DNA of 64,000 nucleotides from the NCBI RefSeq assembly GCF_000428945.1, contig NZ_AUAX01000007.1:186001-250000 (forward strand), read 5' to 3'. The position numbers were made by a program, and so were the translations under genes. The stretch comes from Hamadaea tsunoensis DSM 44101 (GTDB taxonomy: Bacteria; Actinomycetota; Actinomycetes; Mycobacteriales; Micromonosporaceae). Below the pieces are notes generated by a model. The model was not told the origin of the DNA. It did not search any database and was given only the letters and a program-made list of their open reading frames with translations. Shown here in pieces: positions 3,015 through 25,771 of the stretch. Each line of letters begins with the position of its first letter. Position 1 is the stretch's first letter.

Positions 3015-5674
3015 TCGACGCGCTCGTCCTCGGACTCTTCACCGGCCTGACCTACGGGCTGCTGGCGGTCGGCCTCGTCCTCGTCTACCGGTCGAGCCGC
3101 TTCCTCAACTTCGCACACGGCTCGATCGGCGTCTTCGGCGCGGCCGTGCTCGCCGTCCTCGTCCGGACCGGCCTCGGCTACTGGGCGGCGCTTCCCGCCG
3201 CACTGCTCGCCGCGGCCGCGATCGCCGCCCTCGTCGAGGCCGGGGTCGTCCGCCGGCTCGCCGGCCGCCCGCCCGTCACCGGGATGATCGTGACCCTCGG
3301 GCTGTCGCAGTTCCTGCTCGTCGCGGCGCTGCTGATCGACGGGGGCGGGCTGTCCGGCCTGACCTATCCGAAGCCGCCGGGGCTGCCGACGATCACCGTA
3401 GGGCGTACGCCCATCGGACCGGCCTTCGTCGCCATGGCCCTGCTCACCCCGGTCGTCCTCGGCGGACTGGCCCTGTTCCTGCGGCGTACGCGCTACGGCC
3501 TCGGCATCCGGGCCGCCGCCGACGCGCCTGAGACGGCTCGGCTGAACGGCGTACCGGCGCACCGGATGGCGTCGTTCGCGTGGGGCATCGCGGGCGCGGT
3601 GGCGGCGTTCTCCGCCATCCTCGTCACCCCCACACAAGGTACGCAGTCGGTCGACACCCTCGGCCCGGACCTGTTGCTGCGCGGCCTCGCCGGTGCCGTC
3701 GCCGGGCGGATGACGTCCCTGCCGAAGGCGTTCGCCGCCTCACTCGCGATCGGGGTGGGGGAGCGGCTGCTCCTGGCGGCCGGGGCGAGTTCCGGCGTCG
3801 TGGAGGCCTGCCTGGCCGGCTTCGTCCTCGTCGTGCTGCTCTCCCAGCCGCGCCTGGGCCGCCGGGACGCGGGCGCGCCGGGCTGGCTGCGGCCGCCGGC
3901 CGCCCATCCGTGGGCCGGTCGCGCCGTCACCCTGGCCGGTCTCGCGATCGCGGCGGGGCTCGCGTACGCCGTCAGCAACGACACCGCCTCGGCGCTCACC
4001 TCGATCGCCGGGTTCGCCGTGGCCGGGCTCTCGGTCCTCATCGTCACCGGTCTCGCCGGGGAGCTGTCGCTCGGCCAGTTCGCGTACGCCGGCATCGGCG
4101 CGGCGGTCAGCCTGCACGTGGCCGCCGCGACCGGACGGTTCGTCCCGGCGCTCGCGGCCGGATGCGCCGCCGGAGCGCTCGCGGCGGTGCTCGTCGGCCT
4201 GCCCGCGCTGCGGCTGCGGGGGCTGCCGCTGGCCGCCACCACCCTCGCGTTCGCCCTGGCGACCAGCGCCTGGCTGCTGCGCCTGCCGATCCTCCTCGGC
4301 GACGGCGTGACCGCGGCCAAGCCGTCGTGGGGCGGCTACCCGCTCGACCTCGCCAAGGACTACTACCTGTACGCCGTCGGCGTCCTCGGCCTCGCGTTGT
4401 GGCTGACGTACAACGTGCGGCGCAGCGGCTTCGGCCGGGTCCTGATCGCCCTGCGGGAGAACGAGGACGCCGCCCGGGCGTTCACCGTCGGCGTACCGCT
4501 GCGGCGCCTGCAGGCGTACGCGCTGGCCGGTGCGCTCGCGGGGCTGGGCGGCGCGGTCATCGGCCACGGGCAGACGCAGGTCACCGTCAACAGCTTCCCC
4601 GCGTCGGCCGGCATCGACGTGGTGGCCCTGGTGGTCGTCGGCGGACTCGGCCTGCTCGGCGGGCCCGTGCTCGGCGCGATCCTGCTGATCGGCCTGCCCG
4701 CCCTGCTCGACCTCGGCATCGCCGGGCAGGCGGCGCTGACGCTCGGCTGGCTGGCCGTGATCGTGTTCCTGCCGGACGGGCTCGGCGGAACCCTGGCCCG
4801 CCTCGGCCGCCGGCTGCTGCCCCGCCGGACACCGCCGCCGCCGGAGGTGCCCGCCGAACCCGTGCTGCCCGCCCGGACCCTGCCTGTGCCGCCCGCCGAT
4901 GCGGCCCTCCTGCGCGTACGCGGCGTCGCCCGGTCCTTCGGCGGCGTCCAAGCGGTGTCCGGAGTGGACCTGGACGTCCGGCCGGGCGAGATCGTCGGGA
5001 TCATCGGACCCAACGGTGCCGGCAAGACCACGTTCTTCGAGATCGTCGCGGGTTTCACCCGGCCCGCCAGCGGCACGGTGACGTTCGCCGGTCGCGACGT
5101 GACCACCTGGAGTCCGCAGCGCCGAGCCCGGCTGGGCCTCGCCCGGTCCTTTCAGGACGCCCGCCTCTTCGCCACCCTGAGCGTACGCGAGGCGCTGATG
5201 GTCGCCGGTGAGCGCCGCCATCCCAGCGGCCTGGTCTCGGCCGTGCTGGGCGCGCCCGGCCCGGACCGCCGCAAGGCCGCAGGCGCCGACCGCCTGATCG
5301 CGCTGCTCGGCCTGGGCACGGTCGCCGACCAGCCGATCGGTCAGCTGTCCACCGGCACCCGCCGCTTCGTCGAGCTGGCCTGCCTGCTCGCCCTCGAACC
5401 GGCCCTGCTGCTGCTCGACGAACCCTCGTCGGGCGTCGCCCAGGCCGACGGGGCCGCGCTGGCCGATCTGCTGCTGCGGATCAACGCCGAACTCGGCGTC
5501 GCCCTCGTCGTCATCGAGCACGACCTGCACCTGCTCGCCCGCCTCGCCGACCGCCTGGTCGCGATGGAATCCGGCCGGGTGATCGCCGACGGTCCCGCCG
5601 GCGAGATCCGCGCCCATCCCGAGGTCGTCGCCGCCTACCTGGGCGGCGTACCCCTCGGAAAGGAGACCGTGTGA
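3011..5674 (+). CDS. LivH-LivM-LivG triple-fusion ABC transporter (two permeases plus ATPase)
   Basis: One 887-aa polypeptide carries three subunits that are normally separate. Residues ~1-280 are a LivH-type permease (LNFAHGS motif near the start, multiple hydrophobic helices). Residues ~295-600 are a LivM-type permease (GELSLGQFAYAG, then helices ending in FLPDGLGG). Residues ~630-887 are a LivG-type ATPase with GPNGAGKTT, a degenerate signature LSTGTRRFVE in place of LSGG, and Walker B LLLLDEPSSG. The start GTG overlaps the upstream stop by 4 bp. With the neighbouring ATPase this supplies every part of a Liv importer in two genes. The altered signature sequence is normal for LivG-type proteins fused this way as far as I know, but I could not check it. 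Confidence 0.88.
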   Translation: MIDALVLGLFTGLTYGLLAVGLVLVYRSSRFLNFAHGSIGVFGAAVLAVLVRTGLGYWAALPAALLAAAAIAALVEAGVVRRLAGRPPVTGMIVTLGLSQFLLVAALLIDGGGLSGLTYPKPPGLPTITVGRTPIGPAFVAMALLTPVVLGGLALFLRRTRYGLGIRAAADAPETARLNGVPAHRMASFAWGIAGAVAAFSAILVTPTQGTQSVDTLGPDLLLRGLAGAVAGRMTSLPKAFAASLAIGVGERLLLAAGASSGVVEACLAGFVLVVLLSQPRLGRRDAGAPGWLRPPAAHPWAGRAVTLAGLAIAAGLAYAVSNDTASALTSIAGFAVAGLSVLIVTGLAGELSLGQFAYAGIGAAVSLHVAAATGRFVPALAAGCAAGALAAVLVGLPALRLRGLPLAATTLAFALATSAWLLRLPILLGDGVTAAKPSWGGYPLDLAKDYYLYAVGVLGLALWLTYNVRRSGFGRVLIALRENEDAARAFTVGVPLRRLQAYALAGALAGLGGAVIGHGQTQVTVNSFPASAGIDVVALVVVGGLGLLGGPVLGAILLIGLPALLDLGIAGQAALTLGWLAVIVFLPDGLGGTLARLGRRLLPRRTPPPPEVPAEPVLPARTLPVPPADAALLRVRGVARSFGGVQAVSGVDLDVRPGEIVGIIGPNGAGKTTFFEIVAGFTRPASGTVTFAGRDVTTWSPQRRARLGLARSFQDARLFATLSVREALMVAGERRHPSGLVSAVLGAPGPDRRKAAGADRLIALLGLGTVADQPIGQLSTGTRRFVELACLLALEPALLLLDEPSSGVAQADGAALADLLLRINAELGVALVVIEHDLHLLARLADRLVAMESGRVIADGPAGEIRAHPEVVAAYLGGVPLGKETV

Positions 5675-6291
5675 ACTGGACTCGCCGGGCCGCCGCGGCG
5701 CTGGCCGCCGCGCTGCTGGCCGTGTTCGTCCTCCCGCCGCCCGCGTGGTCGGCGCCCGTGCTGACCCTCAGCAAGTCCAGCGGCCTGGCCGACGGCGAGC
5801 GGATCACCGTGAGCGGCCGGGGCTTCACCGCGAACCTCAAGCAGATCGCCATCGGCGAGTGCATCGCCGAGGTGAAGGGACCGACCGACTGCAACCTCGC
5901 GGGCGGCGCCCAGTTCGTCAACGCGGACGCCACGGGCAAGATCCCGACGATCACCCTCAAGCTCGCGAAGAAGTTCGCCACGTTCGACTGCACGAAGCGC
6001 CAGTGCGTGATCGCCGCCCAGCTCATCCCATCGGCGGCCACGCCCGCGGAGGTCGCGGCCAACAAGGCGGCCACCCGTATCTCCTTCGGTACGCCGGCCG
6101 CCTCGAAGTCGCCCACCCCCGCGACTTCCCGAGTTGCTTCCCCGACCACCTCCAGCAGCGCTGGACTGGCCAAGACCGGGCCGGGCGACGAGCGGTGGGT
6201 GCTCATCCTGGCTGGGACGGCCCTCGCCCTCCCCGGCATCGGCCTCCTCCTGCTGTTGCCGCGCCGCCGCCGCACCGCGACCGCCCGCTAG
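5671..6291 (+). CDS. Secreted neocarzinostatin-like protein with LAKTG cell-wall sorting signal
   Basis: The 206-aa protein starts at GTG 5671 (AAAGGAG upstream; 4-bp overlap with the transporter gene). It has a signal peptide ending in the ALAxx/AWSAP region. A beta-rich domain follows, opening with LTLSKSSGLADGERITVSGRGF and carrying paired Cys, as in neocarzinostatin-family domains. Then come a Thr/Ser/Pro spacer, the motif LAKTG, a hydrophobic helix and a C-terminal RRRR tail. LAXTG followed by a helix and basic tail is the class E sortase signal of high-GC actinobacteria, so the protein is probably covalently attached to the wall. It likely works with the Liv importer, perhaps presenting or retaining ligand outside the membrane. 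Confidence 0.8.
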   Translation: MNWTRRAAAALAAALLAVFVLPPPAWSAPVLTLSKSSGLADGERITVSGRGFTANLKQIAIGECIAEVKGPTDCNLAGGAQFVNADATGKIPTITLKLAKKFATFDCTKRQCVIAAQLIPSAATPAEVAANKAATRISFGTPAASKSPTPATSRVASPTTSSSAGLAKTGPGDERWVLILAGTALALPGIGLLLLLPRRRRTATAR

Positions 6292-6842: not shown

Positions 6843-7586
6843 TCAGTGGTCGCGCAGGAGGGCGCCGGCGCCGTACACCTTGTCGGTGATGCCGTTGTCG
6901 CGCAAAGCCATCCACCAGGTCGCCGCGTTGATCGCGATGACCGGCTTGCCGAGCCAGCGCTCCGCCTCGTCGGCCAATCGGACCATGGAAAGGTTCGTTC
7001 CACACTGGACGATCGCGTCGACGTCGTCGGCGTTCACAGCCAGGATGGCGCGGCGCAGCTCGTCCTCGGTCACGTGGGCGATCGCGACGGCCGTCGGGCA
7101 GCGCAGCCCTTCGATGGCGGCGACGTCGAAGCCGATCTCGTTGAAGAAGCGGACGACGTTCTGGTCGCCGACCGGCTGGTAGGGCGTGACGATGCCGATG
7201 CGGCGGGCGCCGAACAGCTGCAAGGCCCGTTCGCACGCCTCCGCGCCGGTGGCCACCTGCAGGCCGGTGATGTCGTGGATCTGGCGTACGAACTCGCGGT
7301 TGCCTTCGACGCCGCCCCAGAAGGTCTCCGCCGACATGCCCATGACCATGTAGTCCGGTTCGCAGGTCAGTACGCGTTCACAGGCCGCGCCGATCTCGGC
7401 CCGGATCTGCACGAGCAGGTTCTCGAAGTTGGCGTCGTCGGACAGATCCTGGTTGCGGATGTGGATGCGGGAGAAGTGCGCGGTCACGCCGGGCACGGTC
7501 ATCGCGTAGAAGTCGGGTTCGACGATCGTGTTCGTGGAGGGGGCGATGACGCCGAACTTGCGGCGCCAGCCGAGAGCGTCGGTCAT
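6843..7586 (-). CDS. Maleate isomerase / arylmalonate decarboxylase-family (Asp/Glu racemase fold) enzyme
   Basis: The 247-aa protein starts at ATG 7586, overlapping the upstream membrane-protein gene by 4 bp. It has the family hallmarks: GVIAPSTNTIVEPDF near the N-terminus, MGMSAETFWGG about one third in, a GIVTPY strand, and VQCGTNLS two thirds in. The Cys of QCGTN matches the C-terminal catalytic Cys of the family (Cys188 in Bordetella arylmalonate decarboxylase). The first catalytic position seems to be Gly in VMGMS, as in the decarboxylase, whereas maleate isomerases and racemases carry a second Cys there. It is the last gene of the tetrapyrrole-type operon and could act on a substituted maleate or malonate. 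The fold is sure; the reaction is not. Confidence 0.8.
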   Translation of the reverse strand: MTDALGWRRKFGVIAPSTNTIVEPDFYAMTVPGVTAHFSRIHIRNQDLSDDANFENLLVQIRAEIGAACERVLTCEPDYMVMGMSAETFWGGVEGNREFVRQIHDITGLQVATGAEACERALQLFGARRIGIVTPYQPVGDQNVVRFFNEIGFDVAAIEGLRCPTAVAIAHVTEDELRRAILAVNADDVDAIVQCGTNLSMVRLADEAERWLGKPVIAINAATWWMALRDNGITDKVYGAGALLRDH

Positions 7587-8203
7587 GCGATCACCTCGGA
7601 TGCGGAAGGCCGGTACGCGCGGACGGTCAGCCAGGCGGCCAGCAGCAGCGCGCCCTGCGCCACCGTGTTGACCGACTGCTCGATCCACTGGAACGTCAGA
7701 GTCGAATGGGAAGCGCTGTGCCGCAAGGGAACCAGGCCGAGGACGGCCAGGACGCCGACGGCGTACAGGGCGACGGCGGGCCATCGCCCGCGGCGGGCGG
7801 CGTAGATCGCCCCGGCCACGCTGAGCGCGGTGACCGCAGCGGTCGCCAGAACGAACACAGGCTGCATCGACATCGAAAGAAGAGCGCCGCCCAAGACAAG
7901 GAGAGCAAGAGCGGCGAAGGGCCACCACGGCCACCGGAACAGCGCCCACAGGAGCAGGAGCGCACCCAGCGCCATCAGCGGGAAGAGGGCGGCTTCGAGC
8001 CACGGCACGTCGGTCGAGGCGGCCGAGACCAGCAGCTTCCACAGGCACTTGGCCAGGCCGCCGGCCACGATGCAGATCGCGCCGAGCCGCCCCGCGCGTA
8101 CCCGGAAAGGGGTGGGGGAAAGGCCGGCGAGCAGGAAGAAGGCGGCGAAGGCCAGGAGGGTCGGGACGAGGTCTTCCAGGGCGAGGGCGACGGGGTAGTT
8201 CAT
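7583..8203 (-). CDS. Polytopic membrane protein of unknown function
   Basis: This 206-aa, almost entirely hydrophobic protein has about six or seven helices (for example LVPTLLAFAAFFLLAG, LGAICIVAGGLAKCLW, FPLMALGALLLLWALF, FAALALLVLGGALLSM). I do not recognise the family, and there is no signal peptide or soluble domain. It starts at ATG 8203, overlapping the reductase gene by 4 bp, and its stop overlaps the next gene by 4 bp, so it is locked into the tetrapyrrole-type operon. A transporter or a membrane anchor for a lipophilic substrate are possible roles, from context only. Confidence 0.75.
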   Translation of the reverse strand: MNYPVALALEDLVPTLLAFAAFFLLAGLSPTPFRVRAGRLGAICIVAGGLAKCLWKLLVSAASTDVPWLEAALFPLMALGALLLLWALFRWPWWPFAALALLVLGGALLSMSMQPVFVLATAAVTALSVAGAIYAARRGRWPAVALYAVGVLAVLGLVPLRHSASHSTLTFQWIEQSVNTVAQGALLLAAWLTVRAYRPSASEVIA

Positions 8204-8961
8204 GACAGGACGTCGCGGGACCGGAAGGGCGCGGTCAGGAAGCGGCCGGTGGCCTTGCCGCGGGTGAGCCAGGCGACGCGGCTGCCGTTGGGGCCGCCGC
8301 GCAGGACGCGCTCGGCGAGCCAGGGGGTCACGGTCTCGACCCGGTCGGCGAGGATGTTGAAGATCTTCCGCACCTTCGCCAGTTCCTCGGGCGTGTAGTC
8401 GTGGGTGAGCAGATCGGTGACGACCATGCCGGGGGAGAGGTGGTGCACGGTGACGCCGGTGCCCGCGACCTCCTTGGCGAGGCTGTCGGTGACGTAGGTG
8501 ACGGCCCGCTTGGTCGCGCCGTAGACGGTGAGGCCGGGCTGGCGCATGCCGTTGGAGCCGAAGCCTTCCATGTTCCACAGCGCCCCGGAGCCCTGCGCGG
8601 TCATGCCGCCCAGCACCACGGCGCTGGTGTGCAGCAGGCCGGTCAGGTTGAGCCCGACGGTGGCGTCGATCGCCGCCGGGTCGAGTTCCCACAGTGGACG
8701 CCGGGCGGGGGACATGCCCGCGTTGTTGACCCACACATCGACCCGGTCGAACCGCTCGATCGCCGTGTCCCACAGGGACTGCACGGCGGCACGGTCGGTC
8801 ACGTCGGCGACGACGCCGACGCTGCCCGGCACGAGCTTCTGCGCCTCGGCGACCTCGCGGCGGCCGCAGAAGACCACCTGCGCGCCGCGGGCGGCGAACT
8901 CGCGTACCAGGCCGAGACCGATGCCGCGGGTGCCGCCGGTCACCACCACGACCTTGTTCAT
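8200..8961 (-). CDS. Short-chain dehydrogenase closely resembling chlorophyll b reductase (NOL/NYC1)
   Basis: The 253-aa protein starts at ATG 8961. A Rossmann TGGTRGIG lies at residues 8-15, NNAG at 79-82, and the catalytic pair Tyr147/Lys151 in YGATKRAV. What sets it apart from generic SDRs is NMEGFGSNG before the Tyr, with Ser136 eleven residues upstream, then HHLSPGMVVTDLL, then KIFNILAD. As I recall them, plant NOL proteins read NIDGAGSDG, YGATKRSV, HNLSPGMVTTDLL and FFINVLAE at the same places. NOL/NYC1 reduce the 7-formyl of chlorophyll b to hydroxymethyl, the first step of its breakdown. Its position beside the Rieske and bilin-reductase-like genes supports a tetrapyrrole substrate. 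The substrate itself is inferred. Confidence 0.85.
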   Translation of the reverse strand: MNKVVVVTGGTRGIGLGLVREFAARGAQVVFCGRREVAEAQKLVPGSVGVVADVTDRAAVQSLWDTAIERFDRVDVWVNNAGMSPARRPLWELDPAAIDATVGLNLTGLLHTSAVVLGGMTAQGSGALWNMEGFGSNGMRQPGLTVYGATKRAVTYVTDSLAKEVAGTGVTVHHLSPGMVVTDLLTHDYTPEELAKVRKIFNILADRVETVTPWLAERVLRGGPNGSRVAWLTRGKATGRFLTAPFRSRDVLS

Positions 8962-9929
8962 CGCGCCTCCCAGTCGAGCACTCCGTGCAGGACGCGGTCC
9001 AGGACGTTGCCCTGGAACACCTCGTAGACCACGGCCAGCCGGCCGCCCGCCGACATGCCGGGCTCGCTGTCGATCGCGAACTCGCGCGTCTTCACCTTCA
9101 CCGCGTCGGTGAAATGCCACCAGCCGAACACCGCGCGCCCGAATCCGGCCGCGTTGCCCCAGATCTCGGGCCCCTCGTAGAAGTGCCGGTTGCCGTCGCG
9201 CCGCGCGACGCACGAGGCCGTCCGCTCGATCGCGCCGCGCCAGCTCACCGTCCGCCGCGTGTGCAGCAGGTCGACGGGCTCCACCCCCAGCTCCACCTGT
9301 ACGCTGCCCCGCTTCTCCTGGTCGGCGCCCCAGGCTTCCAGCGTCCCGGCGTACGCGCCGCGCTGCTTGGTCGGCAGGATGAACGGGACCGGCCCCCGGC
9401 GGGACTCCCCGTCCAGGAAGGCGCGTACGCGTTCCCTCGTGGCCGGGTTCTCGCCGTGGTCGGTCGTGCGGGTGTAGACGCCGTTGAAGCAGCCGACGAC
9501 GGCCCAGCCCTGGTAGAGCGTGGACGAGTAGACCTGGGTCTCGCCGTCGGGCAGCACCTGGTTCCAGGTGTTGAGGTCGACCTGCCAGCCCGGACCGTAG
9601 TAGTGGGAGTCCACGAAGGACCCGTAGGGCTGGCCGGTGCCGTAGAAGTCCGGCCCGGTGTAGACGCGGTCGGCGTCGGAGTCGACGACCCCGAAGGCGA
9701 ACGGCGCGCCCAGCCGGAACTGTCCGGCCAGCGGGCCGCCGCCGATGAGGCCGCCGTCCATGTAGTAGGTCGTCACGCCGTCGGCGAAGACCGACGAGCG
9801 GCGGATCTCCTCGAAACCGCACCAGGTCCCGGTCGCGTCGAACAGCGACGGGCGGCCGTGCCACTCGCCCGCGATCCGCTTCTGCCACTCGCTGGGCCCG
9901 TTCGTGTTCTCGACAGCCCTCTCACTCAT
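8958..9929 (-). CDS. Unknown 323-aa beta-rich protein of the tetrapyrrole-type operon
   Basis: I cannot assign a family. The protein is soluble, with no signal peptide or membrane helix, and unusually rich in Trp, Tyr, Phe and Gly in an alternating pattern that suggests antiparallel beta sheet. It seems to have two similar halves: EWHGRPSLFDATGTWCGFEE opens one and GAYAGTLEAWGADQEKRGSV opens the other. Each is followed by Arg/Thr/Val-rich strands, which would fit a double beta-barrel such as a calycin/lipocalin, a common fold for tetrapyrrole binders. That is a guess. It overlaps the bilin-reductase-like gene by 8 bp and the NOL-like gene by 4 bp, so it is made together with the other enzymes. 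Confidence 0.7.
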   Translation of the reverse strand: MSERAVENTNGPSEWQKRIAGEWHGRPSLFDATGTWCGFEEIRRSSVFADGVTTYYMDGGLIGGGPLAGQFRLGAPFAFGVVDSDADRVYTGPDFYGTGQPYGSFVDSHYYGPGWQVDLNTWNQVLPDGETQVYSSTLYQGWAVVGCFNGVYTRTTDHGENPATRERVRAFLDGESRRGPVPFILPTKQRGAYAGTLEAWGADQEKRGSVQVELGVEPVDLLHTRRTVSWRGAIERTASCVARRDGNRHFYEGPEIWGNAAGFGRAVFGWWHFTDAVKVKTREFAIDSEPGMSAGGRLAVVYEVFQGNVLDRVLHGVLDWEAR

Positions 9930-10626
9930 CGGCCAGCAGCTCCCGCCGGATCGCGTCGGTGGTGTCGTCGCCGAGCAGCCGGGACACCTGGGCCCAGACC
10001 GGGTCGACGTCGCGGCTGAAGATGTTGGCGCGGACGGCCGCGTCCCGGGCGGCGAGATCCGTCCCGGCCGGCGCGGGCAGCCCCTTCTCCACCAGGTCGC
10101 CCCAATGGCCGGCGTACGCGTCTACGGCCGCCCGGATCTGCCCGAACGCCTCCTCGGTGGCGCGGTGCACCAGCATCCAGGGCGACATGACCGCCCGCTG
10201 CCGGGGCCCGACCGCCGCCGGGGTCAGCCCATCCAATGTGGACGTCCGCTCGAACGTCTCGGTCAGCGGCCGGTACGCGGCGTCCAGGTACTCCAGGTTG
10301 GTCGCCAGGTCGGCCCGGGAGATCAGGTCGAGGTGGAACGCGTGGTACGAGCCGCCGTAGACGGAGTCGAGCGTGAAATGCGGCACGGCCGAGTCCGCCG
10401 GCGTGAACGCGAAGATCATGTGGCTGTCCAGCTGGATCGGCGGCACGACCAGCCCGACGTAGACCAGCTTGGCCACGGCGTCACCCCGGAAGATCCGGGT
10501 GTGCCCGACCGGGTGCGGCGACATCGGGCTCACCAGATCGGCCAGCGGCGTCTCGACCTCCGTGAGGCCGTGGCGCGAGACGATCGCGCGCAGGGTCTGG
10601 TCGCACAGGTCGAACGGCAGGCTCAT
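9922..10626 (-). CDS. Red chlorophyll catabolite reductase-like protein (bilin reductase superfamily), copy 1
   Basis: The 234-aa protein starts at ATG 10626. The segment VPHFTLDSVYGGSYHAFHLDL (81-101), then ISRADLATNLEYLDAAY, matches from memory the core of plant RCCR, which has NFVVELIQ...LVLILDLPHRKDLVLNPDYLKEYY. A later MSPWMLVHRATEEAF block and an ARDAAVRANIFSRDVDPVW block align with the RCCR C-terminal half. RCCR reduces the linear tetrapyrrole made by pheophorbide a oxygenase, with electrons from ferredoxin. Its gene overlaps the Rieske oxygenase gene by 4 bp, exactly the enzyme pair coupled in plants. No ferredoxin gene is visible in the window. The superfamily call is good; the exact substrate is inferred. 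Confidence 0.78.
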   Translation of the reverse strand: MSLPFDLCDQTLRAIVSRHGLTEVETPLADLVSPMSPHPVGHTRIFRGDAVAKLVYVGLVVPPIQLDSHMIFAFTPADSAVPHFTLDSVYGGSYHAFHLDLISRADLATNLEYLDAAYRPLTETFERTSTLDGLTPAAVGPRQRAVMSPWMLVHRATEEAFGQIRAAVDAYAGHWGDLVEKGLPAPAGTDLAARDAAVRANIFSRDVDPVWAQVSRLLGDDTTDAIRRELLADE

Positions 10627-11822
10627 GCGGACTCCTCGGCAAGGGGTGCGGTGTCGGCGGACGCCCAGGCGTCGGCCACGCTGGGGTGCTCGCCCCGGGC
10701 CTTGTGCACCCAGGCGCGGGCGAGTTCGGGGTTCTCCCGGCGGGCCGGGCTCGGGATGACCGTCGCCGTACGCTTCGGCACGTCACCGGTGATCGTGTCC
10801 TCGTCGGACAGCAGCCAGCCCTGCGCCGCCAGCTCCTGCCGCCGCCGCCGGTACGCGACCGCGATCAGGTCGCTCTTGATGTGCAGTTCGGCGCCGAGGT
10901 CGAACGGGAGCAGCTCGGGGCGCACCTTGTCGACGACGGCCGCGTCCTGATAGAAGATCTTGAGCGTACGCTGGACCGCGTTCTTGTCGGCCCACTTGCC
11001 GGTGAAGAACGTCCGCAGCGCCACCCACTTCACGAGCGTGTGCGTGTCGTCGATCGGGATGTTCGTGTCGTAGATGACGAGGTCGCCGATGGGCAGCCGG
11101 ACGTGTAGCTTGATCATGTTCGGCAGCATCCACCCCGCCGACGTGCGCACCGGCGGCCGGTTGGCCAGCTTGGCCTTGTCCCGGTTGAGGGCCGCCCAGA
11201 GGCCGCGCGGGCGTGGCGGGTGCAGGTCGACCGTGGCGAACGCCGACCATTCGTCGGGCTGGTCGAGCTCGTACTCGGGCACCTCGGGGCGCTCGGGGTT
11301 GCCGAACGCGCCCGCGTGGACGAACGGCGCGTGCGCGATGTCGCAGCCGTTCTCCAGGATGCGCTCGTAGTTGGCGTTCCAGAGGAACTCGCCGGTGACC
11401 GCGCGGAACCTGCCGCCGTTCTCGACGAGGTCGTCGAATTCCGGCCAGACCGGCATCGGCGGCCGCTCGGCCTCGGGCAGGTCGCCGAGGTAGACCCAGA
11501 CGAAGCCGTACTTCTCCTGCACCGGGTACGAGTCGACGCGGGCCTTACGCGGGATCGGCCGGCCGGGCAGGTTCGCGGGGATCTTGGTGCACTGGCCGTC
11601 CGGCTCGTACTCCCAGCCGTGATACGGGCACACGATGCAGTCGTCCTTGACCGTCCCGCCCGACAGCGCCGCCCCCCGGTGTACGCAGAGGTCCGACAGC
11701 GCCACCGGCCGCCCCTTCGGCGTGCGGTAGAGCGCGAGGTGCTGGCCGAGGGCGGTGACGCGTACCGGCTTGGTGGTGACGCGGTCGGCGAATTCGACCG
11801 CGTACCAGAAGTTCTTCAACAT
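10623..11822 (-). CDS. Pheophorbide a oxygenase-like Rieske non-heme iron oxygenase
   Basis: The 399-aa protein starts at ATG 11822 with GGAGG upstream. The Rieske centre is complete: Cys46-x-His48 in CVHRG and Cys65-x2-His68 in CPYHGW. The mononuclear iron site lies in NYERILENGCDIAHAPFVH, with His164 and His169 as ligands. The context CTKIPANLPGR after the Rieske motif and ERILEN before the iron site resemble the PaO/TIC55/chlorophyllide a oxygenase group more than the bacterial aromatic-ring dioxygenases. PaO opens the chlorin ring of pheophorbide a. It is single-component here, so a reductase must be supplied from elsewhere. Related bacterial Rieske enzymes attack steroids and aromatics; the neighbours favour a tetrapyrrole. 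Confidence 0.82.
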   Translation of the reverse strand: MLKNFWYAVEFADRVTTKPVRVTALGQHLALYRTPKGRPVALSDLCVHRGAALSGGTVKDDCIVCPYHGWEYEPDGQCTKIPANLPGRPIPRKARVDSYPVQEKYGFVWVYLGDLPEAERPPMPVWPEFDDLVENGGRFRAVTGEFLWNANYERILENGCDIAHAPFVHAGAFGNPERPEVPEYELDQPDEWSAFATVDLHPPRPRGLWAALNRDKAKLANRPPVRTSAGWMLPNMIKLHVRLPIGDLVIYDTNIPIDDTHTLVKWVALRTFFTGKWADKNAVQRTLKIFYQDAAVVDKVRPELLPFDLGAELHIKSDLIAVAYRRRRQELAAQGWLLSDEDTITGDVPKRTATVIPSPARRENPELARAWVHKARGEHPSVADAWASADTAPLAEESA

Positions 11823-11825
11823 GGC

Positions 11826-12803
11826 TTACCTCCGCTGCAGTGCTGCGACGCCGGGGGCGGCGAGGAGCGGGTCGAGAGCGTCGGCGGCCCCGCCGAGATG
11901 GCGGGCGCAGAACGCCGTGACGAGGTCGCCGAGCAGGTCGCGGATCGCCTCCGGGTCGCCTTCGGCGTCGCGGTCCAGGAAGGCGCGCGCCGCGGTGTGG
12001 TCGACCGGGTCCGCGATCGCGAAGTGGTTGGCCCCGGCCAGGTGGACGAGCAGGTTCGCGCCGTCCCGGTCCGGCAGGGCCTCGTCGAACGTCCGCGCGA
12101 TCGGGTCGCGCCGGGTCGCCGCGTCCTCGCCGTAGCGGTCGGCCGAGCCGAGGATGACGCCGTCGCGCGTACCGGCGGCGAGCAGGACCGGGCAGTCGGC
12201 CTGGGCGGGCAGCACGGTTCCGGCCGGCCAGCCGAGCATCGTGGCGACCATCGTGTGCGCGCCGTACGTAGCGACGGCCTTCACCTCGGGGAAGTACCGC
12301 GCCGACTGCAACGCGACCGTCCCGCCCGCGGAGTGCCCGATGAGGGCCACCCGGCTCAGGTCGAGGACGCCGTCCAGCGGCTCGCCGAGCTTCGCCACCG
12401 CGTCCAGCACCGGCCGCAGTGACGGCGTCGTCGGGCGGGTGCCGTAGCCGGCCGGGCGGGCGGCGTCGAGGTCCACGCCGGGGGTGATGCCGTTGAGGCC
12501 GCCGAAGAGCGTACCGACCCAGTCGTAGGTGACCGCGGCGATCCCGGCGGCGGCCAGGCGGCAGGCCAGCCACCGGTACGCCTCCTGCCCGACGTTGACG
12601 CCGGACACGATGACCGCCACCGGATAGGGCGCGCCGGACCGGTCGGCGGCCATCACGCCCGACAGCCGCTCGCGGTCGCTGCCGTCGGGCGCGGCCGGGT
12701 AGAACACTCGCAAGTGGACGGTGTCGTAGGGCGGCTCGTGCCCGGGCACCGCGGCCGCCGCCCAGATCGAGCGGATCACCGGGCTCGGCGTCTCTGAGTT
12801 CAC
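11826..12803 (-). CDS. Chlorophyllase-like alpha/beta hydrolase, cytoplasmic
   Basis: The 325-aa protein starts at GTG 12803 (4-bp overlap with the upstream gene). It has an alpha/beta hydrolase fold with nucleophile Ser158 in GHSAGG, Asp214 in GTRDG and His260 in GANHF. The oxyanion region reads VSGVNVGQEAYRWLACRLA followed by GIAAVTYDW, the arrangement of chlorophyllases (plant form roughly HGF...YSxLL...GFIVVAPQ) rather than that of standard lipases. There is no signal peptide. It shares the unusual GxNVG and GANH(F/Y) signatures with the secreted hydrolase at 24078. Chlorophyllase removes phytol from chlorophyll. A dienelactone-hydrolase-type ester or lactone substrate is the main alternative. 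Confidence 0.75.
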   Translation of the reverse strand: MNSETPSPVIRSIWAAAAVPGHEPPYDTVHLRVFYPAAPDGSDRERLSGVMAADRSGAPYPVAVIVSGVNVGQEAYRWLACRLAAAGIAAVTYDWVGTLFGGLNGITPGVDLDAARPAGYGTRPTTPSLRPVLDAVAKLGEPLDGVLDLSRVALIGHSAGGTVALQSARYFPEVKAVATYGAHTMVATMLGWPAGTVLPAQADCPVLLAAGTRDGVILGSADRYGEDAATRRDPIARTFDEALPDRDGANLLVHLAGANHFAIADPVDHTAARAFLDRDAEGDPEAIRDLLGDLVTAFCARHLGGAADALDPLLAAPGVAALQRR

Positions 12804-13603
12804 AGCGGCCGCGCCAGCTGCCGGTCGCCGCCCCAGAGGCCGCGTACCAGCTTGTCGGTGGTCTCCTGGCCGAAGAAGCGTACGCCCATCACGTTGGCCG
12901 GGTCCCGCTCGGCGATGTTGCGCCGCACGCGCAGGTCGGTCTCGGCCAGCGCGGCCCGCTCGGCGGCCGGGACCGGTTCGGCGGCGTCGACCCAGCCCAG
13001 CCACCGGTCGACGTGGGCGTGCAGGCGCGCGGCGACGATGTCGAGGTTGCGCTCGCTGCGCTCGAACGAATAGCAGTACGCCGTCGGGCTCAGGCTGGCC
13101 CGGATGAACCCGGCCCGGCTGACGAAGTACTCGAACTGGGGGTCGCCGCGCAGCTCCAGCCATTCGGCGTCGAGCGGGGCGTAGTAGCGGTCGTAGTAGT
13201 CGCCGTCCACCATGAGGTTCGTGCGCGGCACCGAGTCGAGATAGAACCAGCCCTGCGGCCAGACGAGCAGGGCGATGCCCAGGTGCGGCACCTTGATCTG
13301 CGGCCCGAGCCAGCAGGTCAGGTGGAGGTTGGCGAAGCTGGCGGCGGGATTGCCCAGCCACGAGTGCACCATCCAGTCCACCTCCGGCCCCGCGTACGCG
13401 GCCAGCGAACCGCCCGGCCCGTCCGGATAGCCGCCGTAGCTCTCCAGTTCCAATGTGGATGGATCGCGGGCCGTCTCGAACCGGGCGTCGATCTTCGCCT
13501 TCAGCTCGGCCAGCAGCTGCTGGTACCGGTGGAACGTGTCGTGCACGTCGACCACGGGCGACGAGTCGACCATGTCCTCGACGTGCTGGAGGGTCTCGGC
13601 CAC
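12800..13603 (-). CDS. Bilin reductase/RCCR superfamily protein, copy 2
   Basis: The 267-aa protein starts at GTG 13603. The central block VPHLGIALLVWPQGWFYLDS (105-124), then VPRTNLMVDGDYYDRYYAPL, has the ferredoxin-dependent bilin reductase pattern: PH(L/F)G, alternating strands, then a run ending in YY. The downstream AGFIRASLSPTAYCYSFERSERN block and the ETDLRVRRNIAERDPANV block parallel the same regions of copy 1 and of plant RCCR. Overall identity between the two copies is clearly low, so they probably do different reductions or one serves a scaffolding role. It lies between the nitrilase (6-bp gap) and the chlorophyllase-like gene (4-bp overlap). Confidence 0.72.
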   Translation of the reverse strand: MAETLQHVEDMVDSSPVVDVHDTFHRYQQLLAELKAKIDARFETARDPSTLELESYGGYPDGPGGSLAAYAGPEVDWMVHSWLGNPAASFANLHLTCWLGPQIKVPHLGIALLVWPQGWFYLDSVPRTNLMVDGDYYDRYYAPLDAEWLELRGDPQFEYFVSRAGFIRASLSPTAYCYSFERSERNLDIVAARLHAHVDRWLGWVDAAEPVPAAERAALAETDLRVRRNIAERDPANVMGVRFFGQETTDKLVRGLWGGDRQLARPL

Positions 13604-13609
13604 CGTGGC

Positions 13610-15205
13610 CTACCTTTCGAGGAGGGCGCCGACGAGCCGCCAGGGACGGCCGTCGACGAGGTTGGTCTGCCGGGAAACGTTGCGGTTGGCCGCCTGCGCG
13701 GGCGCGACGGTCGCGCGTACGGCGCTCGCGTCCGGTGGCACCGGCGTGACGAGGGGGTGGCTGATCCGCCCGGTGAACGGGTTCGCCCAGGCGGTCCAGA
13801 GGGTGAAGTCGGGGGAGAGGGCGTAGATCGCGCCGGGCTTCCCGGCGGGCGCCGCGGCGATCACGTTCAGCCGGTTCTCGGCCGCCCGCTCCGGCAGCCC
13901 GTACGCGAGTTCCCAGTCCTCCTGCGGGTCGACCGCGGCCACGACCACGTCCGCGTCGGCGATCGCGGCCAGCCGGAACGTCTCGGGGTAGATGGTGTCG
14001 TCGCCCGCCAGCAGGATCAACCGGCCCCACGGCAGATCGAAAGTGGACAGCTGGCTGTCCGTCCAGTCCGGTGCCCCCGCCCGCTCGTCCGCCCGGCGGT
14101 GCAAGGGCGCCTGCGCGCCCAGCACGCCCGTCGCGTCGACGAGAACCGTGTGCGCCCCGCCGGTCGCGACGCCGTGGGCGGCGCTCCCCGCCAGCGCGGC
14201 TACCAGATCCACCGGGGCCAGGCCGTCGGCCACCACCAGTTCCACGCCGTCCAGTGCCGCGCTGCGCGCCTCGGCGGCTGCTGCGGGTCCGCGTACGAGC
14301 GCGACTCGCAGGCGCTCGACGCCCGCCGGGCGCAGCCGGCCGGTCGGCTGTTCGGCGAGCGGTCCGTAGAGGTCGGGGCGGCGGGACGCGTACACGTGGG
14401 TGCCGTCGGGGCGCTGCTTCGCGTCGGCCAGCGCCGGGTCGATGTCCGCGATCACGACCGCCTCGCCCGTGCGCGGTCCCCGCGCGACCACCGTGCCGTC
14501 CGGCGCCACGATCTGGCTCTCGCCCGCGCCGTGCAGCCATTCCGGGGGTACGCCGAGCGCGGCGCTGATGCGCGGCAGGTGCTCCTCGGGCAGCAGCGGG
14601 CCGACCTTGTTGGCCGCGACGACCCACACCTTGTTCTCGGCCGCGCGGACCGGCACGTGCAGGCTCGCCTCGTCCGTGGCGAACGAGTTCAGGCTGTTGA
14701 GCAGCAGCTGCGCCCCGCGCAACGCCAGTCCCCGGGTCACCTCGGAGATGACGCCTTCCATGCAGGCGTACATGCCGATGCGGCCGAGCGGGGTGTCGAT
14801 CACCGGGCCGGTCTCGACCGCGGGATCGAGATGGTCGTTCTCGGCGCCCATCAACGTCTGCTTGTCGCACCGGCCGAGCACCGTGCCGTCCGGTCCGAAC
14901 AGGAAGTTCGTGCCGCCCGTGCGCCCGTCCGCGTACGCGTGCGTGACGTTGATCTTCACGTGTAACCGGTGCCGGGCGGCCCGTTCGGCGACGGCGGACA
15001 GGAAGTCGTCACCGTCCCGGGTGGCCAGCTCGTGCGCCTGCTCGCGGGACGCGTACCAGGAGAGGTGGTTGCAGAACTCCGGGAGCACGACGAGCTGCGC
15101 GCCCTGCGCGGCGGCGGCGTCGATCAGGCGCAGGCAGGCGGCGAGGTTGGCCGCGATGTCCTGACCGGCTTGCAGTTGGACCGCCGCGACGCGGATGGCT
15201 GCCAT
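13610..15205 (-). CDS. Tandem nitrilase-superfamily hydrolase (second domain degenerate)
   Basis: The 531-aa product is about twice the usual nitrilase length. Residues 1-275 form a complete carbon-nitrogen hydrolase domain with the Glu of PEFCN, the Lys of CDKQTLMG and the nucleophile Cys of YACMEG. Residues ~300-510 repeat the fold (LRVALVRG, WGRLILLAGDD, AAENRLNVIAAA) but lack a recognisable Cys at the nucleophile position, so this half is probably structural. It hydrolyses a non-peptide C-N bond, an amide or nitrile. ATG 15205 follows GGAGG. It is the first gene of the nine-gene operon, directly behind the palindromic operator at 15230. Confidence 0.82.
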   Translation of the reverse strand: MAAIRVAAVQLQAGQDIAANLAACLRLIDAAAAQGAQLVVLPEFCNHLSWYASREQAHELATRDGDDFLSAVAERAARHRLHVKINVTHAYADGRTGGTNFLFGPDGTVLGRCDKQTLMGAENDHLDPAVETGPVIDTPLGRIGMYACMEGVISEVTRGLALRGAQLLLNSLNSFATDEASLHVPVRAAENKVWVVAANKVGPLLPEEHLPRISAALGVPPEWLHGAGESQIVAPDGTVVARGPRTGEAVVIADIDPALADAKQRPDGTHVYASRRPDLYGPLAEQPTGRLRPAGVERLRVALVRGPAAAAEARSAALDGVELVVADGLAPVDLVAALAGSAAHGVATGGAHTVLVDATGVLGAQAPLHRRADERAGAPDWTDSQLSTFDLPWGRLILLAGDDTIYPETFRLAAIADADVVVAAVDPQEDWELAYGLPERAAENRLNVIAAAPAGKPGAIYALSPDFTLWTAWANPFTGRISHPLVTPVPPDASAVRATVAPAQAANRNVSRQTNLVDGRPWRLVGALLER

Positions 15206-15229: not shown

Positions 15230-15242
15230 GAAACGCTGTTTC
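15230..15242. promoter_or_regulatory. Island operator A, GAAAC-GCT-GTTTC
   Basis: This perfect 5+3+5 palindrome (with a further C after it) lies in the 89-bp divergent region between the nitrilase operon and the Dabb gene. It is one of seven matching sites in the island. The leader after it on the minus strand (GTTTCGCTAGGGGAACCGGAGG) is nearly the same as that after operator G, suggesting a shared promoter layout. The best candidate binder is the IclR-family protein at 23036. Confidence 0.75.
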
Positions 15243-15294
15243 CAGAAACTACACTCCGAACAACTTTTGCAACAGGGGTCCGACGGAGGTTGCC

Positions 15295-15603
15295 GTGCTT
15301 GTTCACGTGGTCGTGATGAAGTTCGCCGACGCGGCCGACGCCGCCGGGGCGAAGGCGCGGCTGGAGGCGCTGATCGGGGTGGTGCCGTCGATCCGGTCGC
15401 TGCGCGTGCACCTCGACGAGCTGCGGACCGAGGTGTCCGGCGACCTGGTCATGGTCAGCGAGCACGACGACGCGGACGGGCTGCGCGCGTACCAGGCGCA
15501 TCCCGCGCACCTGGAGGTCGGCGCGTGGCTGCGGACGCGCCTGTCCGCCCGGACGGCCGTCGACTACACGGCGGCCCCGGCAACAGCTTCGATGACCGAA
15601 TAG
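15295..15603 (+). CDS. Dabb-family (stress-responsive A/B barrel) small protein
   Basis: The 102-aa protein starts at GTG 15295. The N-terminal VHVVVMKFADAADAAGAKARLEAL and central SIRSLRVHLDEL are typical of ferredoxin-like alpha/beta barrel (Dabb) domains, which dimerise and either bind small hydrophobic ligands or catalyse cyclisation and hydrolysis. The partially conserved YxxHPxH motif (YQAHPAHLEV) is present. It is divergent from the nitrilase operon and shares operator A with it, so it belongs to the same regulon. Its reaction is unknown. Confidence 0.8.
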   Translation: MLVHVVVMKFADAADAAGAKARLEALIGVVPSIRSLRVHLDELRTEVSGDLVMVSEHDDADGLRAYQAHPAHLEVGAWLRTRLSARTAVDYTAAPATASMTE

Positions 15604-15677: not shown

Positions 15678-17117
15678 TCACGACGGATAGGCGGTGGGCG
15701 AGGCGGAACCGGCCGCCCCCGGCCGGAACGAGGCCGGGGCGTGCAGCACGCGCGTCTGGGCGTACTCGGTGATGCCCTCGTCGCCGTACTCCCGGCCGTA
15801 GCCCGACCGCTTCACCCCGCCGAACGGTGCCCGCAGGGCCATGCCCGTCCGGTTGTGCGTGTTGACGAAGACGAAGCCGGCCTCGATCCGTCCGGCCAGC
15901 GCGAACGCGCGCTCCTCGTCGGCGGACCAGACGGAGGCGCCGAGCCCGAGATCGCCGGCGTTGGCCCGCGCGACGAGGTCGTCCTCGGCGGTGTAGGCCA
16001 GCACCGGCAGGGCCGGCCCGAACTGCTCCTCGGCCACCAGCGGCGCGTCGTCGGGCAGGCCGGCGACGAGCACGGGCCGCACGAAATGGCCGCCGTCCCA
16101 GTCGGTGTCCGGGGCGACCGTCCCGACGGGATGGACCCGGCCGCCCCGCTCGACGGCATCCTCCACAAGGGACTCGACACGGGCGGCGGCCTGCTCCGTG
16201 ATCACCGGGCCCATCGTGACGCCCTCGGCGAGCGGATCGCCGACCCGCAGCAGACCGGCCGCCGCCTCGGTGAAGGCGGCGACGAACTCCTCGTGCCGGG
16301 CGGCCGGCACGTAGACCCGCTTGGCGGCCATGCAGACCTGCCCGCTGGTCGCGTACGCGGCCATGACGAGGCGGCGCATCGGCTCCGCGGACAGGTCGGC
16401 GTCGGGCAGCAGCAGCACCGGATCGTTGCCGCCGAGTTCCAGCACGCACGGCGTCGTCTGCCCGGCCGCCGCCGCCGCGACCAGCCGGCCCGCCGCCGAA
16501 CCGCCGGTGAAGGCGACCTTGTGCACGCCCCGGTGGCCGACCAGCGCGGCCCCCGTGTCCCCGTCGCCCTGCACCACCTGCAGCACGCCTTCGGGCAGCC
16601 CCGACGCCATGATCTTCATGACCGCCTCGACGGCGAAGGGCGCCAGCGGCGACGGCTTCACGACGATCGCGTTCCCGGCGGCCAGGGCGGGGCCGACCTT
16701 GAGCATCGTGAGGATCACCGGGGCGTTCCACGGGGTGATGGCGGCCACCACCCCGTAGGGCGAGCGCCGCAGCAGCAGCCGGCCGAGGTCGTCGTCGGTC
16801 ACCCGGTCGGCGAGGACGGCCGGCGCGCGCCCGGCGACCCAGCGCAGGAACGTGAGCGCGAAGCCGATCTCGCCCGCGCAGTCGGCGCGTACCTTGCCGG
16901 TCTCGCGGGCCATCAGGGTGGCCAGTTCGGCGATCTTCGGCTGGACCAGGTCGGCGGCGGTGGACAGCAGGGCGCACCGCTCCGCGGTCGCCGTCGCGGT
17001 CCAGGCCCGCTGCGCGTACCCGGCGAAATGGACGATGCGCTCGATCGCGGCCGGCGGCGTCACGCGGACGGTGCCCACGAGCTCGCGGGTCCGGGCGGGA
17101 TTGAAGCGCGAGATCAC
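15678..17117 (-). CDS. Aldehyde dehydrogenase family protein
   Basis: The 479-aa NAD(P)-dependent aldehyde dehydrogenase has PWNAP (Asn), KPSPLAP (cofactor Lys), FTGG, LELGGNDP (general-base Glu) and SGQVCMAAKR with the nucleophile Cys. GTG 17117 was chosen because it overlaps the upstream stop as GTGA, like its neighbours; longer starts run into that gene. It oxidises an aldehyde to an acid. It is the last gene of the six-gene operon 22881-15678. Oxidation of a side-chain or phytol-derived aldehyde would suit the island, but the substrate cannot be read from the sequence. Confidence 0.88.
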   Translation of the reverse strand: MISRFNPARTRELVGTVRVTPPAAIERIVHFAGYAQRAWTATATAERCALLSTAADLVQPKIAELATLMARETGKVRADCAGEIGFALTFLRWVAGRAPAVLADRVTDDDLGRLLLRRSPYGVVAAITPWNAPVILTMLKVGPALAAGNAIVVKPSPLAPFAVEAVMKIMASGLPEGVLQVVQGDGDTGAALVGHRGVHKVAFTGGSAAGRLVAAAAAGQTTPCVLELGGNDPVLLLPDADLSAEPMRRLVMAAYATSGQVCMAAKRVYVPAARHEEFVAAFTEAAAGLLRVGDPLAEGVTMGPVITEQAAARVESLVEDAVERGGRVHPVGTVAPDTDWDGGHFVRPVLVAGLPDDAPLVAEEQFGPALPVLAYTAEDDLVARANAGDLGLGASVWSADEERAFALAGRIEAGFVFVNTHNRTGMALRAPFGGVKRSGYGREYGDEGITEYAQTRVLHAPASFRPGAAGSASPTAYPS

Positions 17118-18253: not shown

Positions 18254-19107
18254 GATCTGCCTGCCTCGGTCGCGTAGCGGGCGTCGAGAGCCAGCGCCTC
18301 GTCCTGCCCGACGAGATCCGTGAAGTCCCGCCACGGCAGGCGTTCCCGCGTGACGCGGCCGGTCGCGGCCAGGCTCTCGTAGACGTCGCGGGCCGCGGCC
18401 AACGCAGCGAGCAGCGGCGCGACCGGATGCAGGATCAGGCGTACGCCCGCCGCGGCCAGTTCGGCGTCCCCGGCGACCGGGCGCGGGCCCGCCGCCTCGG
18501 AGCGGTTGACGACGAGGGGGGCACCGGTCGCCTCGTGCGCCCGGGCCAGGTCGGCGGGATCGTCGACGCCTTCGAGGAACACTGCGTCCGCCCCCGCCGC
18601 CGTGTACGCGACCGCGCGCTCGATCGCCTCGGCCAGCCCGTGCTCGGAGTAGGCGTCCGTGCGCGCCACGATGACGAGACCCGTACCGGCCTCGGCGACC
18701 GCTCTGATCTTGCGGGCGGCCGCCACGACCCCGATCAGCTCCTTGCCGGCGAGGTGCCCGCAGCGCTTCGGCTGCACCTGGTCCTCCAGATGCAGACCGG
18801 AAACACCGGCGGCGGCGTACCGGCGGGCGGTCCAGACGGCCTGCAACGCGTCGCCGTAACCGGTGTCGGCGTCCGCCAGCAGCGGCCGCTTCCGCAGGTG
18901 GGGCACGATCGCCGCGGCCCGGGCGGCGATGTGCGTGCCGTGGACGTAGCCGAGATCGGGCAGGCCGAGGTCGAGGGCCGCGCAGGCCGCCCCGGACAGG
19001 TGCGCCGCGTGGTGACCGGCCCGCACCGCGAGCGCCGCCGTCGGCGGGTCGTACACCCCGGGCAGGTGGGTGACCGTATCGGCGGCCAGCAGCGTACGCA
19101 GGCTCAT
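18250..19107 (-). CDS. Isocitrate lyase/PEP mutase superfamily (methylisocitrate lyase-like) enzyme
   Basis: The 285-aa protein has the superfamily pattern: PGVYDPPTAALAVRAG at the N-terminus, DADTGYGD for the metal site, LEDQVQPKRCGHL (the KRCGH loop with catalytic Cys found in isocitrate and methylisocitrate lyases) and IVARTDA. It should break or make a C-C bond next to a carboxylate, for instance splitting an alkyl-malate/isocitrate-type acid to pyruvate or glyoxylate plus an acid. It starts at ATG 19107, overlapping the aldehyde dehydrogenase gene by 4 bp. Oxaloacetate hydrolases and carboxyPEP mutases of the same fold are alternatives. Confidence 0.85.
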   Translation of the reverse strand: MSLRTLLAADTVTHLPGVYDPPTAALAVRAGHHAAHLSGAACAALDLGLPDLGYVHGTHIAARAAAIVPHLRKRPLLADADTGYGDALQAVWTARRYAAAGVSGLHLEDQVQPKRCGHLAGKELIGVVAAARKIRAVAEAGTGLVIVARTDAYSEHGLAEAIERAVAYTAAGADAVFLEGVDDPADLARAHEATGAPLVVNRSEAAGPRPVAGDAELAAAGVRLILHPVAPLLAALAAARDVYESLAATGRVTRERLPWRDFTDLVGQDEALALDARYATEAGRS

Positions 19108-25762: not shown

Positions 25763-25771
25763 CGCGTAATG

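Follow-up and report, generated by a model that had tools for sequence, protein, structure and literature searches.

A candidate regulon for tetrapyrrole use around an operon with two bilin-reductase-fold proteins in Hamadaea tsunoensis

Yearly synthesis and degradation of chlorophyll are of the order of 10^12 kg, according to a passage of PMC7318184, and its breakdown in plants ends at phyllobilins, as an excerpt of PMC4950323 describes. In the open-licence PubMed Central text searched, we found no description of a microbial completion of this breakdown, nor of a bacterial pathway or operon of the kind reported here. We examined a stretch of 64,000 nucleotides from Hamadaea tsunoensis DSM 44101 (the window, at C7:186001-250000; the genome has 9.48 Mb and 68 contigs). 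Nine genes on its minus strand, g1-g9, had been read in an original prediction as an operon resembling the plant PaO/phyllobilin pathway. What does such an operon do in a soil-type actinomycete? Our analysis adds an operator-linked regulon, which joins the operon to secreted hydrolases, to CoA/dicarboxylate genes and to genes for neocarzinostatin-fold proteins in a putative uptake operon. On a modest balance of probability, we infer that this regulon serves the use of an external chlorophyll-derived tetrapyrrole as a nutrient: the pigment would be taken up, its ring opened, and the product reduced and mineralised. Because the gene set is conserved and co-regulated and its carriers include named, culturable strains, the question of microbial chlorophyll breakdown can be put to the test.

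Conservation of the operon and its shared operator

The nine genes were confirmed at 15205-6843, where they had been predicted. Their eight junctions consist of six overlaps of 4-8 bp and two gaps (3 and 6 bp). Conservation was followed in two sets, which come partly from the same genomes. The named set comprises the best 80 of 166 relatives from a scan of species genomes (L067-L146). The family set consists of wide loci and represents 29 genomes out of the 37 others in the family with a g2 match. In 28 of these 29 loci, gene order and strand are retained for the whole operon, the exception being L059, and the grouping is therefore far beyond chance. In the named set, tblastn matches of at least 80 bits were found for g2 in all 80 loci, for g1, g4, g5 and g7 in 78 each, for g6 and g9 in 77 each, for g3 in 76 and for g8 in 28, and g1-g7 with g9 were present all together in 74. 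Judged by titles, this set includes 24 Nocardia, 11 Actinomadura, 8 Catellatospora, 7 Streptomyces, 7 Actinoplanes/Paractinoplanes and 6 Nonomuraea loci.

Alignment of the region 5' of g1 across the family revealed a block of conserved sequence that contains the palindrome GGAAAC-NNN-GTTTC. Within the genome, seven places carry its exact core, GAAACNNNGTTTC, and six of these fall at C7:183041-229715, within 47 kb around the operon; the reversed control gave 0. In the window, GGAAACNNCGTTTC with at most one mismatch gave six matches at five places (0.06 expected), and a 22-base pattern gave two (0.00 expected). A matrix scan of C7:172001-250000 ranked the operator sites of Table 1 together with one beyond the left end of the window, which stands between the uptake operon and a secreted hydrolase; the matrix was built from the nine sites themselves, and the scan is therefore descriptive. 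Two other matrix sites exceeded the best control score of 12.9, at 60361 (14.8) and 45257 (13.1). Among the named relatives, 73 of 80 carry the exact core, with 144 occurrences (reversed control, 0): 91 lie at most 450 bp from the g1 start, 21 have a secreted L149/L120-type hydrolase as neighbour, and 14 are near no queried gene. Since these genes are conserved and share one operator, we consider that they act together. The IclR-family protein at 23180-23911 is a candidate reader of the palindrome.

The uptake operon extends left of the window, and its transporter has permease and ATPase domains of the branched-chain-amino-acid type. Seen by eye, the protein at 5671-6291 starts with a signal-peptide-like stretch and its C-terminus is hydrophobic; relatives of it occur in 49 of 111 scanned loci (30/80 named and 19/29 family loci, with genomes partly shared). 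A second PF00960 domain, in the protein ending at 957, is marginal (24.3/25.3 bits; 22.2 for the full open reading frame, under the cut-off). PF00960 was found at only two places in the genome, both touching the window, on either side of the transporter.

The same linkage bears on the idea of a biosynthetic cluster for a modified pigment or antibiotic. The host is an actinomycete, and Rieske, SDR and neocarzinostatin-fold genes are generally known from such clusters as well. However, the operator is common to the importer, the IclR regulator and the CoA/dicarboxylate lyases, no carrier-protein, ligase, polyketide synthase or non-ribosomal peptide synthetase gene is present in g1-g9 or in the operon at 15.7-22.9 kb, and the genes that look biosynthetic by eye, at 60.5-63.6 kb, fall outside. 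We consider such a cluster very improbable.

Enzymes of the operon and the likely substrate

The original prediction had placed two proteins in the RCCR/bilin-reductase superfamily, and a failure of both to reach it, named there as decisive against the idea, did not occur. The g2 protein passed the PF06405 cut-off, and its profile retrieved Arabidopsis RCCR at 2.3e-14. The g5 protein scored 13.7 bits, under the cut-off of 24.9, and a sequence-profile search of the PDB gave chance-type matches only, the best being designed repeat proteins; it was assigned by its predicted fold. Both proteins thus belong to the superfamily of RCCR and the ferredoxin-dependent bilin reductases (FDBR), with the FDBR/RCCR/CPO fold; they are 23% identical to each other. 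In g5, D87 and D208 are kept in 79/79 sequences and match the catalytic Asp-99 and Asp-219 of GtPEBB. The g2 protein retains only the second of these aspartates, D234 (81/81). At the positions of E154 and D291, the acidic residues of AtRCCR, g2 has alanine (80/81) and D234, and g5 has D87 and D208. A histidine near each active site is invariant (g5 H69, g2 H94), but the two stand one column apart in the hhalign alignment, for which reason we draw no conclusion from them. The g6 protein has a predicted tandem beta-barrel fold of the calycin type; its sequence-profile search of the PDB gave no match.

To our knowledge, the enzymes of this superfamily with known activity all act on tetrapyrroles. 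A calycin beside proteins of the RCCR family and the bilin-reductase fold makes a tetrapyrrole the most economical substrate, and quite probably the right one. Within this class, a chlorophyll derivative is somewhat favoured because ester hydrolases and a NOL-like SDR are present and the heme oxygenase family PF01126 is absent from the genome; PF01126 was the only heme oxygenase family searched.

The fold of g5 also suits a different tetrapyrrole. It is about as near to PebB, PebA, HY2 and PcyA as it is to RCCR, with rows that differ by no more than 1-2 Z, and the two reductases lie side by side, as PebA and PebB do. The regulon could thus take up and degrade an already open-chain bilin (plant phyllobilin, phycobilin, or heme-derived biliverdin or bilirubin), with the Rieske enzyme, which is not PaO, modifying a ring or methine bridge instead of opening a macrocycle. 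Biliverdin and bilirubin are made by Streptomyces atratus, according to an excerpt of PMC10060970. However, the secreted esterases and the NOL-like SDR of the regulon suit chlorins better, and the result for PF01126 speaks against a heme source. We regard the open-chain substrate as rather unlikely.

The g4 protein had been described as a PaO-like Rieske oxygenase. The Rieske class was upheld, and the residues of the Rieske centre and the mononuclear iron (C46, H48, C65, H68, D161, H164 and H169) are kept in 79/79 sequences. The PaO part was rejected: g4 is of the VanA type and has no PF08417 match at E<=1. Its cysteines stand only at positions 46, 62, 65, 78 and 160 of 399, so the C-terminal CxxC motif of PaO is absent. 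The solved Rieske enzymes nearest to g4 have saxitoxin precursors, methylxanthines and dicamba as substrates, and its best NCBIfam match, far under the cut-off, is 4beta-methylsterol monooxygenase. These likenesses, together with Rieske, FMO, aldehyde dehydrogenase, nitrilase, AMDase-type and CoA families that are common in catabolic clusters, would fit the degradation of a non-tetrapyrrole aromatic or N-heterocycle by a bilin-reductase fold recruited to another substrate. Against this stand the known substrates of the superfamily, the retention of both catalytic aspartates in g5 and the fact that the two reductase-fold proteins and the calycin stay together across classes. We judge this explanation improbable.

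We observed that g4 is just 57-62% identical in Actinomadura, Nocardia and Streptosporangium-type loci (L086-L146), where g9 is 76-85% identical; g4 may therefore be exchanged or follow another substrate.

The remaining enzymes agree with the original prediction to varying degrees. The nitrilase and the maleate isomerase/AMDase-type enzyme were borne out by their family scores (Table 1), and E43, K115 and C148 of g1 are kept in 77/77 sequences. Maleate isomerase has two catalytic cysteines and AMDase one; g9 keeps C195 in 78/78 and has no cysteine in its first-half motif M82-T88, a pattern that leans towards AMDase. The chlorophyllase label of g3 was rejected (PF07224, 15.5 against a cut-off of 26 bits). 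The predicted NOL/NYC1-like reductase g7 is indeed an SDR, and its likeness to NOL is a lead: it was the best of 15 genome matches to a provisional NOL stretch (79.1 against 43.7 bits) and the sole one beyond query residue 124 of 186, and no NOL/NYC1 entry was present among the best 60 of its 138 PDB matches. That g8 is a membrane protein was seen by eye only.

The secreted-looking hydrolase at 24078-24968 is homologous to g3 (28%, E=1e-10), and relatives with 45-53% identity occur in 12/80 loci. In a Yinghuangia relative, PF07224 is the best family. The secreted hydrolase at L149 10029-11009 reached 19.4 bits with PF07224, under the cut-off, and its family adjoins the operon in 35/80 relatives. 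That the 24078 hydrolase removes phytol is a guess, because its solved relatives are PETases.

Proposed route and comparison with known systems

In the route that we propose, secreted hydrolases would cleave an ester bond, possibly that of phytol. The neocarzinostatin-fold surface proteins and the ABC transporter would then capture and import the pigment, a role suggested by the families they belong to, their uniqueness in the genome and the operator that they share. Within the cell, g7 may trim a ring substituent, g4 may hydroxylate or open the macrocycle, and the pair g5 and g2 would reduce the linear product, with g6 as a possible binding or handing-over protein. FAD- and flavin-dependent oxygenases and aldehyde dehydrogenases could cut the chain to pyrrole pieces, and the nitrilase, cyclic-amidase and isochorismatase-type hydrolases could open lactams or imides. 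Imide hydrolysis would yield branched maleates for g9 and the RipB-, RipC- and CoA-transferase-like genes, and these enzymes, with the HMG-CoA-lyase-like lyase, would bring branched dicarboxylates to central metabolism. Maleimides and hematinic acid have been described from senescent leaves and sediments in earlier work; the study PMC7318184 found hematinic acid and no maleimides. A literature search on dimethylmaleate-type catabolism brought no useful parallel. If true, the route would be a source of new bilin reductases and of a Rieske enzyme that acts on tetrapyrroles, and would extend the neocarzinostatin fold to a use beyond antibiotic chromoproteins. We put forward tentatively, and with some doubt, the stronger proposal of a first complete bacterial chlorophyll-mineralising route, from dephytylating hydrolases, neocarzinostatin-fold receptors and importer through Rieske opening and a two-reductase step with a calycin carrier, and on by way of pyrroles, lactams or maleimides and branched dicarboxylyl-CoA esters to central metabolites, under one operator across many actinomycetes.

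Several findings weigh against the use of a chlorophyll-derived tetrapyrrole. Where RCCR has an acid, g2 has alanine (80/81; threonine in one), and the calycin rows of g6 include an anti-sigma factor, designed barrels and many fatty-acid-binding proteins. PF08417 was not found anywhere in the genome, and two control genomes did match. The likeness of g7 to NOL depends on a provisional query sequence. The PDB chains nearest to the 24078 hydrolase are PETases and cutinases; PF07224 and PF12740 grade into generic esterases, and PF12740 outscores PF07224 here. The downstream enzymes are under most equivalog cut-offs, and the RipB-like gene and those at 26357, 33415 and 35495 occur in just 1/80 relatives each (loci of at most 10 kb). 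The operator is absent in 7/80 relatives (all but one of the seven Streptomyces loci, and Yinghuangia), some of these loci being shortened by contig ends, and matrix site 45257 falls within a gene. Three of the four genomes of the genus, all but our own, have no g2, and g3, g7 and g8 gave no tblastn match in the loci L065 and L066 of other classes.

Compared with the plant PaO/phyllobilin pathway, the regulon has in common a Rieske oxygenase with an RCCR-superfamily reductase, a NOL-like SDR (as a lead) and a hydrolase above a chlorophyllase cut-off, though with a higher score for PF12740. It differs in its VanA-type Rieske enzyme, in having two reductase-fold proteins, in the lack of any match to the HCAR-type domain model in the genome, and in the addition of an importer and downstream mineralisation genes. 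The SGR model also gave no match in the genome, which is uninformative, as control genomes gave none either. The idea of a plant-pathway operon was thus right in outline for the reductases; the regulon may work partly like the plant pathway, yet it is not the plant enzyme set and is larger than the operon first described.

With the FDBR enzymes (PebA/PebB, PcyA and HY2), g5 shares the fold and both catalytic aspartate positions, whereas identity in the fold alignments is 13-18% and g2 lacks the central acid. The pre-PcyA/BBAG clusters described in PMC10151467 are likewise conserved clusters with FDBR-superfamily enzymes in non-photosynthetic, heterotrophic bacteria; they have globins, V4R and Fe-S proteins, whereas here Rieske, calycin, nitrilase, SDR and AMDase-type proteins are present. 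Nostoc punctiforme also has two RCCR-family genes close together, Npun_R3277 and Npun_R3279, which an excerpt of PMC2716323 describes as highly similar to each other, unlike g2 and g5; the comparison covers the two genes themselves. Similarly to the itaconate-degrading RipA/RipB/RipC system, the island has a RipB-like hydratase, a RipC-like lyase and family III CoA transferases, but these are not equivalogs (182.6 against 340 bits for the RipB-like and 169.3 against 375 bits for the RipC-like protein) and are linked by operator sites to the Rieske/RCCR operon.

Distribution and neighbouring genes

A g2 match was found in 38 of 300 genomes of the family, Micromonosporaceae, our own counted. An RCCR-family gene was present in 3 of 396 sampled phylum genomes, namely our own, G550 and G592, the last two from other classes. 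In their loci (L065 and L066), g2-g4-g5-g6 are contiguous at 40-51% identity with a g1 homologue nearby (45 and 40%). In L066, g9 (55%) and the FAD monooxygenase (51%) are present as well. By clustering, in which clusters lacking a window protein were considered only after that protein had been re-inspected, the CoA-transferase and RipC-like families recur in both loci and the HMG-CoA-lyase family in L066; MmgE/PrpD and HyuA/HyuB-like genes were seen by eye in L065. Pairwise distances between operon genes are moderately correlated (Spearman 0.25-0.80, 73 loci; g4 and g5 lowest with some partners), and gene exchange is therefore possible. There is no sign of plasmid or viral carriage in the records searched: g2 and g5 had no tblastn match in 72,556 plasmid records, and g2 had no relative in viral_contigs.

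Table 1. Features of the window in window coordinates (L149 positions are named as such); the catabolic stretch is 25839-36865
Feature	Position	Strand	Family match or remark
Putative uptake operon	1-6291	+	extends left of window
Neocarzinostatin-like membrane protein	L149 13920-14957, window start to 957	+	uptake operon
Presumed substrate-binding protein (by eye)	950-2305	+	no Pfam match
ABC ATPase	2295-3014	+	uptake operon
Permease-ATPase fusion	3011-5674	+	uptake operon
Anchored-looking neocarzinostatin-family protein	5671-6291	+	PF00960 74.5 vs 25 bits
g9, AMDase/EutA/maleate-isomerase-type enzyme	6843-7586	-	PF17645 73.4 vs 25.9 bits
g8, small membrane protein (by eye)	7583-8203	-	no Pfam family; dispensable (28/80 named loci)
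g7, SDR, NOL/NYC1-like (lead)	8200-8961	-	PF00106
g6, tandem calycin beta-barrel protein	8958-9929	-	DUF3598/BFA1-like
g5, bilin-reductase/RCCR-fold protein	9922-10626	-	two catalytic-type aspartates
g4, VanA-type Rieske oxygenase	10623-11822	-	PF00355 79.1, PF19112 94.6 bits
g3, intracellular alpha/beta hydrolase	11826-12803	-	weak generic family matches
g2, RCC-reductase-family protein	12800-13603	-	PF06405 60.8 vs 24.9 bits
g1, nitrilase-superfamily hydrolase, 531 aa	13610-15205	-	PF00795 141.6 bits, two CN_hydrolase stretches
Operator palindrome	15230-15243		before g1/Dabb gene
Dabb-domain gene, divergent	15307-15603	+	PF07876 55.6 bits; 50/80 named loci
Second catabolic operon	15678-22881	-	six genes
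Aldehyde dehydrogenase	15678-17117	-	second operon
FAD monooxygenase	17114-18253	-	second operon
PrpB/PEP-mutase-type lyase	18250-19107	-	second operon
Aldehyde dehydrogenase	19104-20570	-	second operon
Acyl-CoA-dehydrogenase-type flavoprotein	20597-21883	-	second operon
Flavin reductase	21880-22881	-	second operon
Operator-like site	22918-22931		one core mismatch; between flavin reductase and IclR
IclR-family regulator	23180-23911	+	PF01614 159.7 bits; 32/80 named loci
Secreted-looking alpha/beta hydrolase, chlorophyllase/PETase-type	24078-24968	-	PF12740 35.7 vs 28, PF07224 29.9 vs 26 bits
Operator palindrome	24996-25010		before 24078 hydrolase
Operator-like site	25771-25784		one mismatch; before RipB-like gene
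RipB-like hydratase	25839-26354		catabolic stretch
Luciferase-like monooxygenase	26357-27358		catabolic stretch
CoA transferase	27379-28554		catabolic stretch
MmgE/PrpD	28868-29974		catabolic stretch
Ribonuc_L-PSP	29971-30930		catabolic stretch
MaoC	31391-31825		catabolic stretch
Thiolase-like	31908-33023		catabolic stretch
ChsH2-like OB	33020-33430		catabolic stretch
Acyl-CoA dehydrogenase	33415-34578		catabolic stretch
RipC-like lyase	34575-35423		catabolic stretch
MmgE/PrpD	35495-36865	-	catabolic stretch
Cyclase-family protein	36862-37653	-	PF04199 92.8 bits
CoA transferase	37653-38843	-	next to cyclase-family protein
Operator-like site	38875-38888		one mismatch; between CoA transferase and cyclic amidase
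Dihydropyrimidinase/allantoinase-like cyclic amidase	38922-40349	+	family match
DUF4437 cupin	40409-41254	-	island gene
Acyl-CoA synthetase	41251-42738	-	island gene
Operator palindrome	42748-42762		before acyl-CoA synthetase
HMG-CoA-lyase-like	42785-43681	-	island gene
Operator palindrome	43702-43716		between HMG-CoA-lyase-like gene and CoA transferase
CoA transferase	43759-44922	+	island gene
Isochorismatase-type hydrolase	44922-45545	+	island gene

After resolving overlaps, the neighbours most often found in the 80 named loci were the aldehyde dehydrogenase (71), the FAD monooxygenase (65), the second dehydrogenase (64), the flavoprotein (52), the Dabb gene (50), and the flavin reductase and the IclR gene (32 each). 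Rarer were the DUF4437 cupin (21), the PrpB-like (19) and RipC-like (16) genes, the secreted hydrolase (12), and the HMG-CoA-lyase-like and acyl-CoA synthetase genes (9 each).

Some further observations were made. Left of the window, the putative uptake operon starts with a 549-aa secreted-looking protein and a protein at L149 12985-13923 with a WxLIP peptidoglycan-binding domain (39.1 against 27.3 bits), a domain thus seen in an actinomycete uptake operon. The locus of Actinoplanes couchii (L059/L097) carries a decayed copy of the operon, with fragments of g1 and g4 around an open g2 and the upstream operator block remaining, and Nonomuraea corallina (L116) has a g2 homologue (67%) with the rest of the operon absent. 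The seventh exact palindrome of the genome, at C30:6698-6710 (L150), lies just 5' of a gene for a 731-aa protein that looks by eye like a secreted amylase, possibly by chance. The operator-like site at 60361-60374, outside the island, precedes a ligase/carrier/dehydrogenase-looking group at 60548-63635.

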